A DNA stretch of 64,000 bases from Marinobacter subterrani (GTDB lineage: Bacteria > Pseudomonadota > Gammaproteobacteria > Pseudomonadales > Oleiphilaceae): contig NZ_LFBU01000001.1 of the NCBI RefSeq assembly GCF_001045555.1, forward strand, positions 1,736,001 to 1,800,000, given 5' to 3'. The position numbers and the translations under genes were made by a program. This document shows positions 3,050 through 22,772 of the stretch, piece after piece (positions within the stretch are counted from its first letter, which is position 1; every line of letters begins with the position of its first letter). Under the pieces are notes generated by a model, which worked only from the letters and a program-made list of their open reading frames with translations, was not told where the DNA came from and made no database searches.

Positions 3050-3922
3050 ATGGCAGAAACTCTCGTTTATCACAATTCGCCACCCTCACTACTGCCGCTC
3101 TACGGCAAGGCACTGCTGGCGAGGCAGGAAAAGGGCGGGAGCATGACAATCCCGGACTTGTCGGCGTGCCTGCGGGGCGCCAGCACAGGCGGCGATAGCC
3201 TCAAGCGTTACCGGAAGGTATGCGGATTCACGCCGCACAGCCACCTGCCGCTCACCTGGCCCCATGTACTGGCATTCCCCCTGCACCTGAAACTCCTGAC
3301 CGACGATCGCTTTCCACTGCCATTGCTGGGGCTGGTCCACCTGCGCAACACCATCACCCAGTACCGGCGTGTCGGCGCCGGGGAAAACCTGGATATCAGC
3401 GTCTGTCTGGGCAATGAAACGCACACCACCCGGGGTGTGGAGTTTGATCTGATTACCGAAGCCCGTTCGGCAGGCAGGCTGGTCTGGGAGGAAGCAAGCA
3501 CTACCCTGTTTCGGCAACCACAGAAAGATGGCGAACCGACGGGCAAGAAGGCACCACCAGAACTGGAGCGCTATCCCCACACAGTGAGCCTGTCTGCACC
3601 AGAATCCATTGGCCGCCAGTACGCCCGGGTATCCGGCGACAGCAACCCGATCCACATGCACGCCCTCAGCGCCAAAGCCTTCGGTTTCCCCCGGGCAATT
3701 GCGCACGGCATGTGGACCAAAGCCCACGCACTGGCAGTGCTGGAGCAACAGAAAGGCTGGCGCCCGGGCGCGATCAGGGCAGCCTGTCAGTTCAAGAAGC
3801 CGCTTTTTCTGCCGGGCACGGCTCAGCTGAACTGGAAGACCGGGGAATCAGGCTGGGATTATCAGGTGCTGAACGCGAAAGGCGACGCGCCGCATCTGAG
3901 CGGGCGCATCGACTGGCTCTAG
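3050..3922 (+). CDS. MaoC-like acyl-CoA hydratase/dehydratase
   Basis: 290 residues from the ATG at 3050, chosen because GGAG lies at good spacing before it; an upstream in-frame ATG at 3017 is less well placed. The C-terminal half holds the hydratase-2 signature: YARVSGDSNPIHMH and then FPRAIAHGMW, with the Asp and His expected to be catalytic. The protein has the two-hot-dog layout of longer MaoC proteins, with a diverged N-terminal half. Likely role is hydration or dehydration of an enoyl/3-hydroxyacyl-CoA (or ACP) in fatty acid metabolism; the substrate is unknown. Its stop overlaps the stop of the convergent kinase gene (CTAG at 3919-3922). Confidence 0.8.
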   Translation: MAETLVYHNSPPSLLPLYGKALLARQEKGGSMTIPDLSACLRGASTGGDSLKRYRKVCGFTPHSHLPLTWPHVLAFPLHLKLLTDDRFPLPLLGLVHLRNTITQYRRVGAGENLDISVCLGNETHTTRGVEFDLITEARSAGRLVWEEASTTLFRQPQKDGEPTGKKAPPELERYPHTVSLSAPESIGRQYARVSGDSNPIHMHALSAKAFGFPRAIAHGMWTKAHALAVLEQQKGWRPGAIRAACQFKKPLFLPGTAQLNWKTGESGWDYQVLNAKGDAPHLSGRIDWL

Positions 3923-5502
3923 GCTTTTGGTGCCGCGTCCTCCGGGGTGCAGGGAGCACCCTGGGCGCCGGCAACCGGAAGGGTAAAGTAAAAACAGGCA
4001 CCGCCGTCTTCCGGGCGCTGGAAACCGATATCCCCGCCCTGGGCCTGAATCAGCGAGCGGCAGGTAGAGAGCCCGATGCCCATACCATCATCCTTGGTGG
4101 TAAAAAACGGCAGGAACAGCTTTTCTTCGGCATCTTCCGGCAAACCCACACCGTGGTCGCGAACCTGGATTCGCACACAGGTATCGCCCTGCCTGCTGGC
4201 CGATACCTCAACCGGCGCGGCAGAGCTCACACTACTGGTCGCCTCCAGGGCATTCCGTATGAGGTTGAGCGCCACTTGCTGGACCTGAATCGGATCAGCC
4301 ATCACATCCGGCATATCGTCAGGTACCACAAGCTCTATGGCACCTTTGTTATTGCGCATGTCCACCTCGGCAAACTGCCGGGTGTCCTCCAGAAGCGCCG
4401 AGACCGAAAGCACTTCCTTGCCGGTTACCGGTTTCTTCATGAACCGCCGGATCCGGCGGATAATTTCGCTGGCCCGATGGGATTGCGCCTCGATCTTGTC
4501 CAGGGTCTCCTGAAGCAGCCCCATATCCGCGGTTTCTTTCGCCATCATCCGCTTGGCGACCCGGGCGTAGTTGGTAATCGCCGTTAACGGCTGATTCACT
4601 TCGTGGGCAACACCGGCGGCCATTTCACCCATGGTGGTCAGGCGTGAGGTATGCGCCAGCTGGTCCCGCTGCTCCTGAACCAGATGCCGGGCCTCTTCCA
4701 GGGCCCGCTCGCTGTCCAGCTCGGCAGTAATGTCCCTGAACACCACGACAGCGCCATGGAGCTCGTCGCCGTCCAGCTTGGGGGTAGACCGATATTCCGC
4801 CGGAAAGCCGGTGCCATCGGCCCGCAGCATGCGGATATCCCGCTGGTTCTCGGCTACCCCCTGCTGGCAGGTTGCTTTTACCGGAAGACTGTCCGGATTA
4901 TCCCCGGCCGTGGCGAAATGGGTTGCAAAAAAGTTGCGGCCGATCAGCTCCTCCACCGGAGCCCCCATAATGAGCGCCGCCGCCGGATTCGCGAATTCGA
5001 TCAGGCCATTCTCATCAAGGCCGTAAATGCCCTCGCTGATCGAGTTAAGGATGCGGGCCTGGTCACTCTGAAGCTCACGGTTACGGGCTTGCAGCTCTCT
5101 TTCAAGGCGGATGACCGAGGCGTGGGTCTTAACCCGGGCGATCACTTCCTGGGATTGGAACGGCTTGGAAATATAGTCAGCGCCGCCCAGGGAAAAGCCC
5201 TTTACCTTGGCCTGCAGGTCATCAAGGGCAGACAGGAAGACAACGGCGCAGTCGGCCGTCTGGGAATCGGCCTTGAGGCGCTCACAGACTTCATAACCGT
5301 CCATCTCCGGCATCATGATATCCAGGAGGATTACTTCAGGCTGGTGGCGGTGGGCAAGATCCAGTGCCTTTTCGCCTTCATTGGCAATCAACAGCCGGTA
5401 ACCTTTATCTTTCAGGGTCTCATAAAGGACTTTGAGGTTCTGCGGATTGTCGTCCACAAGCAGAACCGTCACCTCTGAGTTCTCGCTGACAGCTTCAGTC
5501 AT
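3919..5502 (-). CDS. Cytoplasmic histidine kinase with N-terminal receiver and PAS domains
   Basis: 527 residues without membrane segments. Order: receiver domain (about 12-130; phosphoacceptor Asp61 in LLDIMMPEMDG, Lys113 in SKPF), PAS domain (about 145-260, ending FRDITA), DHp domain with H-box MGEMAAGVAHEVNQPLTAI (His300), and HATPase (about 395-510) with N-box NLIRNALEAT and G-boxes GVGLP and GMGIGLS. The short coiled segment before the H-box is typical of the FixL-like group. It lies 45 bp downstream of the FixJ-type regulator on the same strand, so the two probably form one system. The N-terminal receiver may let another kinase feed in. Signal unknown. Confidence 0.9.
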   Translation of the reverse strand: MTEAVSENSEVTVLLVDDNPQNLKVLYETLKDKGYRLLIANEGEKALDLAHRHQPEVILLDIMMPEMDGYEVCERLKADSQTADCAVVFLSALDDLQAKVKGFSLGGADYISKPFQSQEVIARVKTHASVIRLERELQARNRELQSDQARILNSISEGIYGLDENGLIEFANPAAALIMGAPVEELIGRNFFATHFATAGDNPDSLPVKATCQQGVAENQRDIRMLRADGTGFPAEYRSTPKLDGDELHGAVVVFRDITAELDSERALEEARHLVQEQRDQLAHTSRLTTMGEMAAGVAHEVNQPLTAITNYARVAKRMMAKETADMGLLQETLDKIEAQSHRASEIIRRIRRFMKKPVTGKEVLSVSALLEDTRQFAEVDMRNNKGAIELVVPDDMPDVMADPIQVQQVALNLIRNALEATSSVSSAAPVEVSASRQGDTCVRIQVRDHGVGLPEDAEEKLFLPFFTTKDDGMGIGLSTCRSLIQAQGGDIGFQRPEDGGACFYFTLPVAGAQGAPCTPEDAAPKA

Positions 5503-5547
5503 ATATTCAGGGCCGGTTAAAAAAGTAACCGTATGATGCCGGCGGGA

Positions 5548-6174
5548 TCACCCGGCGTCGATAAGGTCCTTTACGGACAGGACCATACGGACAAGATGTG
5601 CAAGGGAATGGGTGCCCATCTTGTGCATGACGCGGGAGCGGTGAATCTCCACAGTGCGCTGGCTGATCTCCAGCTCAATGGCGATGACCTTGTTGGCCTG
5701 ACCGGCAATCATACGGTCCATGATTTCGTGCTCTCTCGGAGTCAGGCTGTTGATACGCCGAATAATTTCCTGCTTCTCATCCAGCGATTTGCGCTGTTCC
5801 AGGTCCTGCCTCAGCGCCGCCTCGATCTTTTCCAGCAGCGCCTCTTCCCGGTAGGGCTTCTGGATGAAATCTACAGCCCCCTCTTTCATGGCATCTACCG
5901 CCATGGGCACGTCACCGTGGCCCGTGACAAAGATAATAGGCAGAATTGAATGCTTTTCGTTCAGTTTCTTCTGCAACTCCATACCGTCCATGCCGGGCAT
6001 TCGGATATCCAGCACAATGCAGCCGGCCATCCTGTCGGTATAGTCCTTCAGGAAAGCGGTTGCACTCTCATAGGTCTTGACCGGCTTGCCGTCGGATTTA
6101 AGCAGTAGCTCCAGGGAGTCGCGGACTGCCTCATCGTCCTCTACCACGTACACGGTTTGCTGAATATCAGTCAT
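5548..6174 (-). CDS. FixJ-family response regulator (LuxR-type output)
   Basis: 208 residues. Receiver domain at about 7-120 with the acidic pair Glu12-Asp13, phosphoacceptor Asp56 in IVLDIRMPGMDG and Lys in FIQKPY. The C-terminal LuxR/FixJ helix-turn-helix (about 140-205) includes LTPREHEIMDRMIAGQANK and ISQRTVEIHRSRVMHKM. It is placed between the Lon-like protease gene (39 bp upstream) and the histidine kinase (45 bp downstream), all on one strand, which suggests a single transcription unit. Target genes are not visible from the sequence. Confidence 0.92.
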   Translation of the reverse strand: MTDIQQTVYVVEDDEAVRDSLELLLKSDGKPVKTYESATAFLKDYTDRMAGCIVLDIRMPGMDGMELQKKLNEKHSILPIIFVTGHGDVPMAVDAMKEGAVDFIQKPYREEALLEKIEAALRQDLEQRKSLDEKQEIIRRINSLTPREHEIMDRMIAGQANKVIAIELEISQRTVEIHRSRVMHKMGTHSLAHLVRMVLSVKDLIDAG

Positions 6175-19241: not shown

Positions 19242-20870
19242 TCAGTCCAGGTCTTTGGCCTGATCCCTCAGCACGAACTTCTGGATTTTGCCCGTGGAAG
19301 TCTTGGGCAGCTCCGAGAAGACGACGGTTTTGGGTACCTTGAACCGCGCCAGATGCTCGCGACAGAAGGCGATAATGTCTTCCTCGCTCACCTGGCCGGC
19401 CTCCGGCTTGAGGGTTACAAAGGCGCAGGGAGTTTCGCCCCACTTCTCATCCGGCCGTGCAACCACCGCCGCCTCGAGAACGGCCGGGTGGCGGTATAGG
19501 GTATCCTCGACCTCAATGGTGGAGATGTTCTCACCACCGGAGATGATGATGTCCTTGAGCCGGTCCTTGATTTCCATATAACCGTCTTCGTGCCACACGG
19601 CCAGGTCACCGGTGTGGAACCAGCCGCCCCGGAACGCTTCTTCGGTGGCCTTGGGGTTCTTCAGATAACCTTTCATGACGGTATTACCGCGCAGGAAGAT
19701 CTCACCGATGGTCTTGCCGTCTTTGGGCACCGGTTCCATGGTGTTCGGGTCACCGACCATGGTGCCGGCCAGAGTGTGATAGCGAACCCCCTGGCGAGCT
19801 TTCTTGCGGGCACGATCATGCAGTGGCAGCGAATCCCACTCGGACTTCCACGCGCAAACGGTCACCGGACCATAGACTTCGGTCAGGCCGTACACGTGAG
19901 TCACCTGGATACCCATTTCTTCGATGGCTCCAATGACCTGTGCGGGGGGCGCCGCACCGGCTGTCATGGACTTCACGTCGTGATCGATGCCCGCCTTGGC
20001 GGATTCCGGCACGTTCAGCAGCGCGTTGAGGACAATGGGAGCACCACACATGTGGGTGACCTGGTGATCACGAATCAGCTGCAGGATCTTCTCCGGATCA
20101 ACGCGGCGCAGGCAAACGTGAGTACCGGCCATGGCGGTGATGGTCCAGGGGAAGCACCAGCCGTTGCAATGGAACATCGGCAATGTCCACAGGTACACCG
20201 GGTGCATGTCCATGGACCAGACGGCCTGGTTGCCAAGGGCATTGAGGTAAGCGCCGCGGTGGTGATAGACCACACCTTTCGGATTGCCGGTAGTGCCGGA
20301 TGTGTAGTTCAGGGAGATTGCATCCCACTCGTTCTCAGGGAAGCTCCACTGGAACGCCGGATCGCCTTCCTGCAGGAAGGCTTCGTAATCGAGATCGCTG
20401 ACCTGAACGCCCTCGCCGTACTCGGGATCGTCCACATCAATGACCAATGGCTTGGTGTCCAGCCTGCTGACGGCGTCCTTGATCACCTCACCGAATTCCC
20501 GGTCGGCAATCACAACCCTGGCCTCACCGTGCTCCAGCATGAAGGCAATGGCCTCGGCATCCAGACGAACATTCAGGGTATTCAGCACCGCACCGATCAT
20601 GGGAACCCCGAAATGGGCTTCCACCATGGCGGGAATATTCGGCAGCATGACGGCGACGGTATCACCGCGTCCGATGCCGCGCCCTTTGAGGGCAGAGGCC
20701 AGACGGCGACAGCGCTCGTAGGTCTGCGCCCAGGTGTAACGGATGGCCCCGTGAATTACCGCGGGGTACTCCGGGTAAACGGTAGCGGTACGTTCGATAA
20801 AATCGACGGGAGATTGAACGGCGTAGTTGGCGTCGACGGGCGCCAGGCCCTGATCAAATATCGAGGTCAT
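19242..20870 (-). CDS. Acyl-CoA synthetase (medium/long-chain fatty-acid-CoA ligase family)
   Basis: 542 residues of the AMP-forming ANL superfamily. The adenylate-binding P-loop is YTSGTTGNPKGVVYHHRG (about 178-195); further motifs are HVYGLTEVYGP, WFHTGDLAVWHEDG and KDRLKDIIISGGENIS; the C-terminal lysine motif is PKTSTGKIQKF. The conserved Trp and His positions near HCNGWCFPW resemble AlkK-type medium-chain ligases rather than classical FadD. It activates a carboxylic acid as acyl-AMP and then acyl-CoA in the cytoplasm. It is divergent from the kinase/regulator pair at 21023-22772, which probably controls it (inference). Followed by an intrinsic terminator. Confidence 0.88.
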   Translation of the reverse strand: MTSIFDQGLAPVDANYAVQSPVDFIERTATVYPEYPAVIHGAIRYTWAQTYERCRRLASALKGRGIGRGDTVAVMLPNIPAMVEAHFGVPMIGAVLNTLNVRLDAEAIAFMLEHGEARVVIADREFGEVIKDAVSRLDTKPLVIDVDDPEYGEGVQVSDLDYEAFLQEGDPAFQWSFPENEWDAISLNYTSGTTGNPKGVVYHHRGAYLNALGNQAVWSMDMHPVYLWTLPMFHCNGWCFPWTITAMAGTHVCLRRVDPEKILQLIRDHQVTHMCGAPIVLNALLNVPESAKAGIDHDVKSMTAGAAPPAQVIGAIEEMGIQVTHVYGLTEVYGPVTVCAWKSEWDSLPLHDRARKKARQGVRYHTLAGTMVGDPNTMEPVPKDGKTIGEIFLRGNTVMKGYLKNPKATEEAFRGGWFHTGDLAVWHEDGYMEIKDRLKDIIISGGENISTIEVEDTLYRHPAVLEAAVVARPDEKWGETPCAFVTLKPEAGQVSEEDIIAFCREHLARFKVPKTVVFSELPKTSTGKIQKFVLRDQAKDLD

Positions 20871-20952: not shown

Positions 20953-21013
20953 TAGTATTGGATAGAATAAATACTAGAAATTATACCAATGTATTATAGT
21001 TACTTTACTATAA
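20953..21013. promoter_or_regulatory. AT-rich inverted repeats in the divergent acyl-CoA synthetase/kinase promoter region
   Basis: Two AT-rich inverted repeats lie 39 bp apart centre to centre: TAGTAT (20953-20958) with ATACTA (20971-20976), and TTATAGT (20994-21000) with ACTATAA (21007-21013). They share a TAGTA/TACTA-like core and stand out from the GC-rich surroundings. Candidate operators for the FixJ-type regulator at 22116 or for promoter opening; no direct evidence. Confidence 0.4.
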
Positions 21014-21022
21014 AGATAAGCC

Positions 21023-22123
21023 ATGAACGATGTTCCCCCTTCAAGTGTATTTAGTTTGCACGACGCTGACCCGCAACCCGGATTGATCCTGGATGGGGCG
21101 GGTACCGTCATGGTGGGGAACCGTGCCGCCAGGAATCTGTGCCAGACAGCCGGCCTGACTTCGCCCCACAGGCTCCTGCCAACCAACGCCCAGGCACTGG
21201 TGAACGCTTCGCTGGAGCAGAACCGTGCTATTGAAAACGTGGAATCCCGGATTCCCTCGGAGCTTTCCGAAACCATCCTGATGTGGACATTCATCCCGGA
21301 TGCCGAAACCGCCCGGGTTCTGGCACGGGCACGAGACGCCACGCAAGATGTCCTGACCCAGGAAGAGGCCACCCGTTCCAACCGCCTGTACCGGCTGATC
21401 ACAGAGAACACCACCGATCTCATATCCCGCCACGCTCCGGACGGACGCTTTATCGATGCCACGCCCGCCTCATGGCGACTGCTGGGCTACTGGCCGGAAG
21501 AACTGCGGGGCAAACCGCTCGAAGAGGTCTTTCGCGGCAACCACGTCACTCAGAAACTGACGGAAACCCGCAATCTGCTCCGGGATGACGGCTACGCCAC
21601 CATGACCCTGGAGATCATCCACCGGGACGGATCCCGCCGCTGGTTCGAGATTGCCAGTCGGGCTATCCGGGAAACTTACACCGGCGCCGTAATTGAGGTC
21701 ATCAGCGTATCCAGGGATATCACCGCCGATCCGGTGCTGCTGGAACAGGTACTGATCAATCTGATCCGCAACGGCATTGAAGCCACGATCGAAGCCCGGG
21801 GCGAAGAAGCCCAGAGCGCACCTGCGCAGATTGTCATAACCACCTGCATCAACGATCAGAACGAAACCCTCATTGAAGTCACGGATGAAGGTCCGGGCCT
21901 GGACGAGCAGGGCATCCGCCAGATGTTTCAACCGTTCTACACCAGCAAGCCCCAGGGACTGGGCCTTGGCCTGTCCATGAGCCGTTCGATCATTGAAGGC
22001 TTTGGTGGCTTCCTGGATGCCCGCCCGGCCGCAACCGGTGGCCTGTCCCTGATCTGCCGGTTCCCGGCAAGCCAGAGTCAAAAGCACAGAACCGCAACCA
22101 CGGAGAACCAGCCCAATGCGTGA
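21023..22123 (+). CDS. PAS-domain histidine kinase lacking its DHp (phosphoacceptor) domain
   Basis: 366 residues, no membrane segment. Two PAS-like domains (about 8-110 and 118-235; the second ends VSRDITA) run directly into the N-box of a HATPase domain (DPVLLEQVLINLIRNGIEAT at 236-255). G-boxes DEGPGLD and GLGLGLSMSRSI are intact. There is no H-box or helical dimerisation region. In the kinase at 3919-5502 about 140 residues separate the same two landmarks (DITA and ADP), so roughly 420 bp appear to be missing in frame; the junction at about 21716-21730 falls on residues common to both sides. It may be unable to autophosphorylate. It overlaps the regulator gene by 8 nt. Confidence 0.8.
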   Translation: MNDVPPSSVFSLHDADPQPGLILDGAGTVMVGNRAARNLCQTAGLTSPHRLLPTNAQALVNASLEQNRAIENVESRIPSELSETILMWTFIPDAETARVLARARDATQDVLTQEEATRSNRLYRLITENTTDLISRHAPDGRFIDATPASWRLLGYWPEELRGKPLEEVFRGNHVTQKLTETRNLLRDDGYATMTLEIIHRDGSRRWFEIASRAIRETYTGAVIEVISVSRDITADPVLLEQVLINLIRNGIEATIEARGEEAQSAPAQIVITTCINDQNETLIEVTDEGPGLDEQGIRQMFQPFYTSKPQGLGLGLSMSRSIIEGFGGFLDARPAATGGLSLICRFPASQSQKHRTATTENQPNA

Positions 22124-22772
22124 ACACTCTGCCTCGGACGCCACCACCGTCTACGTTGTTGACGACGACGCCGGCATGCTGGAATCCACCCAATGGTTAC
22201 TGGAATCGGTCGGCCTGAACGTGGAGGCCTACAGTGACGGCCGGAAATTTCTGGACGCGGTGGGCAACAAGACAGCCGGCTGCGTGGTATTGGATGTGAG
22301 GATGCCGGGGCTCGGCGGCCTGAACGTTCAGGAGGAGCTTCAGAAGCGAGGACTGGACCTGCCCATCATCTTTGTCTCCGGCCATGCCGATGTGCCCATT
22401 GTAGTCAGGGCGTTCAAATCCGGTGCTTTCGATTTTATCGAAAAGCCGTTCAACGAACAGCTGCTGCTGGACAGCGTTCAGCAGGCCCTTCAGGAACATC
22501 ACCAGTCCGGCACACAGCTTCAGGGCGATGAGGCAACCGAAGCCCTGCTGGCCACCCTCACCCGGCGGGAAAAGGACGTGTTTCTGCCACTGGCCCAGGG
22601 TTACACCAGCCGGGAAATCGCCGACCAGCTGGATGTCAGTGTAAAGACGATTGACCTGTACCGGGCGCGGGTGATGAAACGCCTGGGCGCGGATCGGCTA
22701 CCGGATGTCACCGGTACCGCCATTGCCGCCGGGCTGCTCGACCCGCTGGACCTGCGTAGGGAAAAGAACTGA
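22116..22772 (+). CDS. FixJ-family response regulator (LuxR-type output)
   Basis: 218 residues. Receiver domain at about 11-125 with acidic residues Asp16-Asp18, phosphoacceptor Asp60 in VVLDVRMPGLGG, Thr/Ser replaced by Ser in FVSGHADVP and Lys in FIEKPF. The LuxR-type helix-turn-helix (about 150-205) includes LTRREKDVFLPLAQGYTSRE and VSVKTIDLYRARVMKRL. The gene starts inside the end of the upstream kinase gene (8-nt overlap), so translation is probably coupled. Because that kinase lacks a phosphoacceptor His, the regulator may depend on another kinase. Likely target is the divergent acyl-CoA synthetase operon (inference). Confidence 0.92.
   Translation: MREHSASDATTVYVVDDDAGMLESTQWLLESVGLNVEAYSDGRKFLDAVGNKTAGCVVLDVRMPGLGGLNVQEELQKRGLDLPIIFVSGHADVPIVVRAFKSGAFDFIEKPFNEQLLLDSVQQALQEHHQSGTQLQGDEATEALLATLTRREKDVFLPLAQGYTSREIADQLDVSVKTIDLYRARVMKRLGADRLPDVTGTAIAAGLLDPLDLRREKN

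Follow-up and report, generated by a model that had tools for sequence, protein, structure and literature searches.

BfiS/BfiR of Pseudomonas aeruginosa (PA4197/PA4196) is a sensor kinase and regulator pair reported to control biofilm initiation (PMC2774163), and according to a review it activates cafA (PMC10418997). The second PAS domain of BfiS is listed among the candidate fatty-acid binders of a survey (PMC8694187). No signal of BfiS/BfiR was found named in the portions of the literature that our searches covered, and these searches returned no work that treats BfiS and BfiR together with PA4198 or that describes a pair of this type in Marinobacter. Pseudo-histidine kinases such as DivL are derived from kinases and have lost the phosphoacceptor chemistry; DivL keeps the fold of the phosphoacceptor (DHp) domain with a changed residue. 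Searches for natural loss of the DHp gave nothing beyond a report on CpxA. The sensor kinase described here is likewise kinase-derived, but it lacks the whole DHp and occurs in this form in one genome only.

The kinase gene and its relation to BfiS and FixL

The window, a 64,000-nt stretch of the Marinobacter subterrani genome, contains an open frame on the forward strand (21023-22123) that encodes a sensor kinase of 366 aa (P0001), compared with about 500 aa for its orthologues. Pfam finds PAS matches, the best-scoring at residues 139-235, followed directly by HATPase_c at residues 236-350 (21728-22072 +), which covers model positions 2-110 of 111 and includes what we take to be the N, G1, F and G2 boxes at residues 246, 288, 302 and 312. 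The PAS domain recognized by TIGR00229 (residues 119-235; 21377-21727 +) aligns with the second PAS of BfiS. No Pfam match to HisKA was obtained in this protein at E values up to 1, whereas the top full-length relative in the protein search (P0002, 504 aa, 90% over 64% of the query) has HisKA at residues 259-328, between the same landmarks. The original prediction of a kinase that lacks the phosphoacceptor DHp while its frame stays intact is thus borne out, the protein having 138 residues fewer than its relatives. As was also predicted, the other kinase of the window keeps His300 and about 140 residues between the corresponding landmarks, the alignment giving 141 from A260 of DITA to A402 of ADP. 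That kinase belongs to a second FixJ-type pair on the reverse strand (3919-6174), a receiver-PAS-HisKA-HATPase kinase with a LuxR-type regulator, and pairs similar to it are present in many of the listed genus genomes.

Downstream, a FixJ/BfiR-type response regulator of 218 aa with receiver and GerE domains (22116-22772 +) overlaps the kinase gene by the predicted 8 nt (22116-22123). It looks normal, as had been claimed, and contains Asp60 and Lys110, presumably its active-site residues.

By likeness of the kinase, this pair would be of the BfiS/BfiR type. The comparison covered BfiS (P0139, named so by its source). The window kinase matches it at 55% over 220 aa of the PAS part and at 50% over 116 aa of what is left of the CA part; for P0002 the values are 56% over 234 aa (PAS) and 42% over 380 aa (from PAS to CA, DHp included), and the window's other kinase reaches 32%. 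BfiS is longer, with 758 aa, an extra PAS and a complete DHp, while the window protein has two PAS domains and no DHp. The genome G214 has an orthologue of 748 aa whose sequence is the same as that of a protein from Pseudomonas sp. GCEP-101. The intact relatives share the PAS-HisKA-HATPase type and a FixJ-type regulator with FixL/FixJ, and the nearest solved structures are FixL fusions for the kinase and FixJ for the regulator. Scores nevertheless stay below the NCBIfam cut-offs for FixL (equivalog, 850; window kinase 71.7 bits, P0002 162.5) and FixJ (255; regulator 187.5).

The 414-bp gap and what it removed

In an alignment with eight relatives, exactly one 414-bp block (138 codons, in frame) is absent from the window gene. 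The gap of 100-150 residues that had been expected at residue 235 was therefore found, with 138 residues, and the earlier estimate of about 420 bp is corrected to 414 bp. The best match in genome searches, Marinobacter sp. BW6 (91% identity over the PAS part), has the 10-mer TATCACCGCC on both sides of the block, at gene positions 696 and 1110, and the window retains one copy at the junction (21718-21727 +). The exact gap and these flanks support what was originally proposed, a short direct repeat as the site of an in-frame deletion; a repeat does lie at the junction, but it extends beyond the ACCGCC first named, to as much as 10 bp. Taking the BW6 gene as a stand-in for the parent allele, we found only two direct-repeat pairs of 10 bp and none longer, and of 1,098,903 possible deletions of at least 30 bp in that gene, the window gap coincides with one of these two, which goes beyond what chance would give.

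BW6 was dropped as the sole closest relative, several species being about equally near: dS to the window is 0.27-0.71 for five other near relatives versus 0.30-0.43 for BW6. In those five the in-register repeat match is 5, 8, 9, 10 and 6 bp, with the copies always 414 bp apart. Since the repeat, 5-10 bp across the six near relatives, is only 5-9 bp in four of them, the homology in the true parent may have been weaker than it is in BW6. The loci found in named genomes number 33, of which 31 are from Marinobacter and two are remote matches of 28-29%. The landmarks were 414 bp apart in 23/23 loci that our script could read (8 of the 31 Marinobacter loci were unreadable by it), and these included five with a 10-bp run and two with a 9-bp run. 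The frame survives the deletion because both repeat copies encode Ile-Thr-Ala in one frame, and the parental repeat probably comprised at least these shared codons, possibly the full 10 bp.

No other part of the kinase-regulator gene pair is as conserved as the missing segment: omega lies at 0.018-0.053 for six of the seven pairs formed by intact relatives, and the remaining pair is saturated. The segment carries the H-box His268 (P0002 numbering), which is invariant in a 41-row alignment. Its downstream limit was compared with solved structures. Matches to CA domains solved alone (3a0t and 1r62) start at residues 337-340 of the full-length kinase, that is, 31-34 residues before the junction at residue 371, while those to 5idm, 5idj and 6paj start only at residues 367-374, near the junction; 5idm is a CA construct and its match starts at chain residue 36-37. 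In line with these alignments, the N-terminal CA segment belongs to the domain fold. The deletion would thus have taken the linker and the HisKA domain and, judged by the solved structures, about 33 residues from the N-terminal end of the ATP-binding domain. The ATP-binding domain is probably without its N-terminal segment, although Pfam HATPase_c looks nearly complete because the Pfam model starts later than the solved CA domains. The original description of the DHp as cleanly missing therefore holds for the DHp itself, but probably makes the loss too small. A DHp relocated in the genome and a second intact copy of the lost block were both looked for, and neither turned up: the best protein match to the DHp is 33% identical and lies in the kinase at 3919-5502, and the best DNA match to the block is 75% over 72 bases.

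Distribution of the short form and state of the regulator

We searched 124 genomes of the genus with P0002 and found the gene in 90. In 84 of these it matched in one stretch that includes the DHp, the gene of G118 being cut at its start. Four genomes (G020, G082, G106 and G144) have longer frames, of 611-638 aa, in which two matches overlapping on P0002 are found and the DHp is kept; these frames probably contain an extra sensor domain. In G036 the kinase gene is spread over several frames, again with the DHp kept. At that locus (L116, G036:C1:3045500-3052000) both kinase and regulator are affected; the genome is a single contig with 6% contamination, and the frameshifts may be real or sequencing errors. 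Altogether the DHp region is kept in all 89 other Marinobacter genomes that have the gene and is absent only in the window genome (G000). In the protein search, the H-box is present in 120/120 listed matches of 1252, none of which is a protein of 340-400 aa; the database is clustered at 90% identity, so that single variants could stay hidden, and the species is represented by one genome among those searched. The DHp-less kinase is a variant private to one genome in the sets searched. The original prediction had named occurrence of the same short form in many genera as evidence against it; in the part of that comparison covered here no such homologue was seen (0/89 genus genomes, 0/120 listed matches of 1252), and a stable short family is rejected for these sets.

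Genome-by-genome comparison placed the regulator in the same 90 of 124 genomes as the kinase gene, and it was never seen without that gene among the 124. Pairwise omega for PAS, CA and regulator is 0.14, 0.13 and 0.12 between G000 and BW6, and 0.15, 0.13 and 0.10 between BW6 and EhC06. A 13-row tree pairs G000 with BW6 as sisters (99/98) on branches of much the same length (0.052 and 0.059). In a set of seven rows, G000 has 3, 1 and 3 residues that no other row shares (PAS, CA and regulator) and BW6 has 1, 0 and 1, numbers too small for a verdict. This absence of decay in the remaining frame fits a deletion that is young relative to the split of G000 and BW6, and it would equally fit a short protein still under selection. 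Relaxed selection is uninformative as a clock, because omega is an average over all the time that has passed since the lineage and its relatives separated (dS of about 0.3 upwards).

The divergent acyl-CoA synthetase and a candidate operator

Divergent from the kinase gene lies an acyl-CoA synthetase of the PRK08162 type (19242-20870 -), which is conserved as a neighbour and may be a regulated gene. The whole order of kinase, FixJ-type regulator and divergent synthetase is seen in 29 of 31 Marinobacter loci, the exceptions both lying at contig ends, with the synthetase cut in L078 and absent in L089. Counting only its orientation relative to the kinase, the synthetase is divergent in 30 of 31 (one cut), and the remaining locus is cut inside the kinase. 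It also accompanies the kinase-regulator pair divergently in 5/5 order-level orthologue loci (L111-L115), two of which, L111 (Pseudomonas, by protein identity) and L112 (with the same genus label), have the three genes in the same order. In G294, by contrast, a remoter pair (35%) is accompanied by a 61% synthetase that shares its strand. This neighbourhood is a feature seen here and no published criterion for the BfiS type. Given the synthetase neighbour and the PAS2 domain of BfiS as a candidate fatty-acid binder, the arrangement suggests a fatty-acid or acyl-CoA signal for BfiS-type kinases.

The promoter region is conserved, the 152-bp divergent region of the window resembling that of 16 aligned relatives. 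Upstream of the kinase, in the promoter shared with the synthetase, lies a dyad, TATAGT-N6-ACTATA (20995-21012), which is the only match in the genome to TATRGT-N6-ACYATA; a reversed control pattern also matches once. Across the genus an exact dyad match occurs in 60 of 124 genomes. The pair is present in 57 of these, out of 90 genomes that have it, and absent in 3, out of 34 that lack it; the other 33 pair-bearing genomes show no exact match. The place of the dyad is covered for 54 of the 57: it is in this intergenic region in 53 and only elsewhere in one (G019), so that at least 53 of the 90 have it here. The 53 include G118, where the dyad is beside the synthetase and the kinase is on another contig. 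The reversed control matches in 40 of 124 genus genomes, and it is therefore the place of the dyad, not its number, that serves as evidence. Outside the genus the dyad was found in 7 of 10 genomes: at the locus in four of five orthologue genomes (G214, G287, G201 and G255, not G165) and elsewhere in the genome in G294, G156 and G220. The dyad is a good candidate for the operator of the BfiR-type regulator. In G072, a genus genome without the pair, a dyad (G072:C44:56789-56806) lies about 130 bp upstream of an acyl-CoA synthetase and is possibly a left-over operator.

Probable loss of kinase function and its alternatives

We consider it highly probable, at roughly 85%, that a short-homology (slippage) deletion disabled a BfiS-type kinase and orphaned its intact regulator. 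Replication slippage, or another short-homology deletion, between the two in-frame repeat copies would have excised the 414 bp from the gene of a BfiS-type sensor kinase and kept the frame. The product would retain two PAS domains and the ATP-binding boxes and lack the linker, the DHp helices with His268 and the first CA segment; with these gone, neither autophosphorylation, phosphotransfer nor phosphatase action would be expected. As the regulator is intact while the kinase appears disabled, regulator output at the divergent acyl-CoA synthetase/kinase promoter would be set by basal binding or by non-cognate phosphodonors. Judged from the sequence, the lesion most likely kills the kinase and leaves the regulator without a partner, which agrees with the loss of signalling and the orphaned, intact regulator that were originally proposed.

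The evidence was also weighed against other readings. Selected rewiring, with an advantage in losing the kinase and with a different kinase (the FixL-like hybrid at 3919-5502, for example) now driving the regulator, seems unlikely to us. In its favour, no DHp found in the genome is closer than that of the hybrid, and the regulator is free of decay; but an identity of 33% is low for cross-talk, and 45 bp separate the hybrid from its own regulator gene (5548-6174). We see still less reason to regard the short protein as a functional ATP-binding PAS partner, no longer phosphorylating but still able to bind ligand and ATP and to control the regulator, or a different kinase, through contact as an anti-kinase or dominant partner. 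Such a role would suit the intact frame and ATP-binding boxes, a pairwise omega that is not raised and a kinase gene that still overlaps the regulator gene. However, the original suggestion of a new partner protein of this kind gains little from a singleton form (0/89 other genus genomes with the gene) whose deletion cuts about 33 residues into the ATP-binding domain, and from a regulator that never occurs without the kinase gene in 124 genomes. If it were true, the product would be a one-off regulator that senses a ligand through PAS, retains a remnant of the ATP-binding part, and holds the BfiR-type regulator or another kinase by contact and not by phosphate. Least probable is an assembly or sequencing artefact, with the 414 bp present in the cell: while the short allele was found in no other record and one genome represents the species, usual assembly overlaps far exceed a 10-bp repeat, the host genome (4.45 Mb) is assembled in 2 contigs with completeness 100 and contamination 0.08, and the junction looks as a slippage product should.

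Disablement of the kinase by a short-homology deletion is thus preferred, and the finding most likely amounts to lost function and not to a protein of a new kind. Being a lone allele of a single genome, it leaves the general picture unchanged. It would nonetheless represent a clean natural gene dissection: since Ile-Thr-Ala borders the lost segment on either side and can set an in-frame repeat around the catalytic core, one event can make a PAS-CA fragment from a sensor kinase and spare the downstream regulator. The locus may thereby provide a natural kinase-minus state of a BfiS/BfiR-type system, in which the conserved synthetase neighbour and the dyad make a fatty-acid or acyl-CoA link directly testable.
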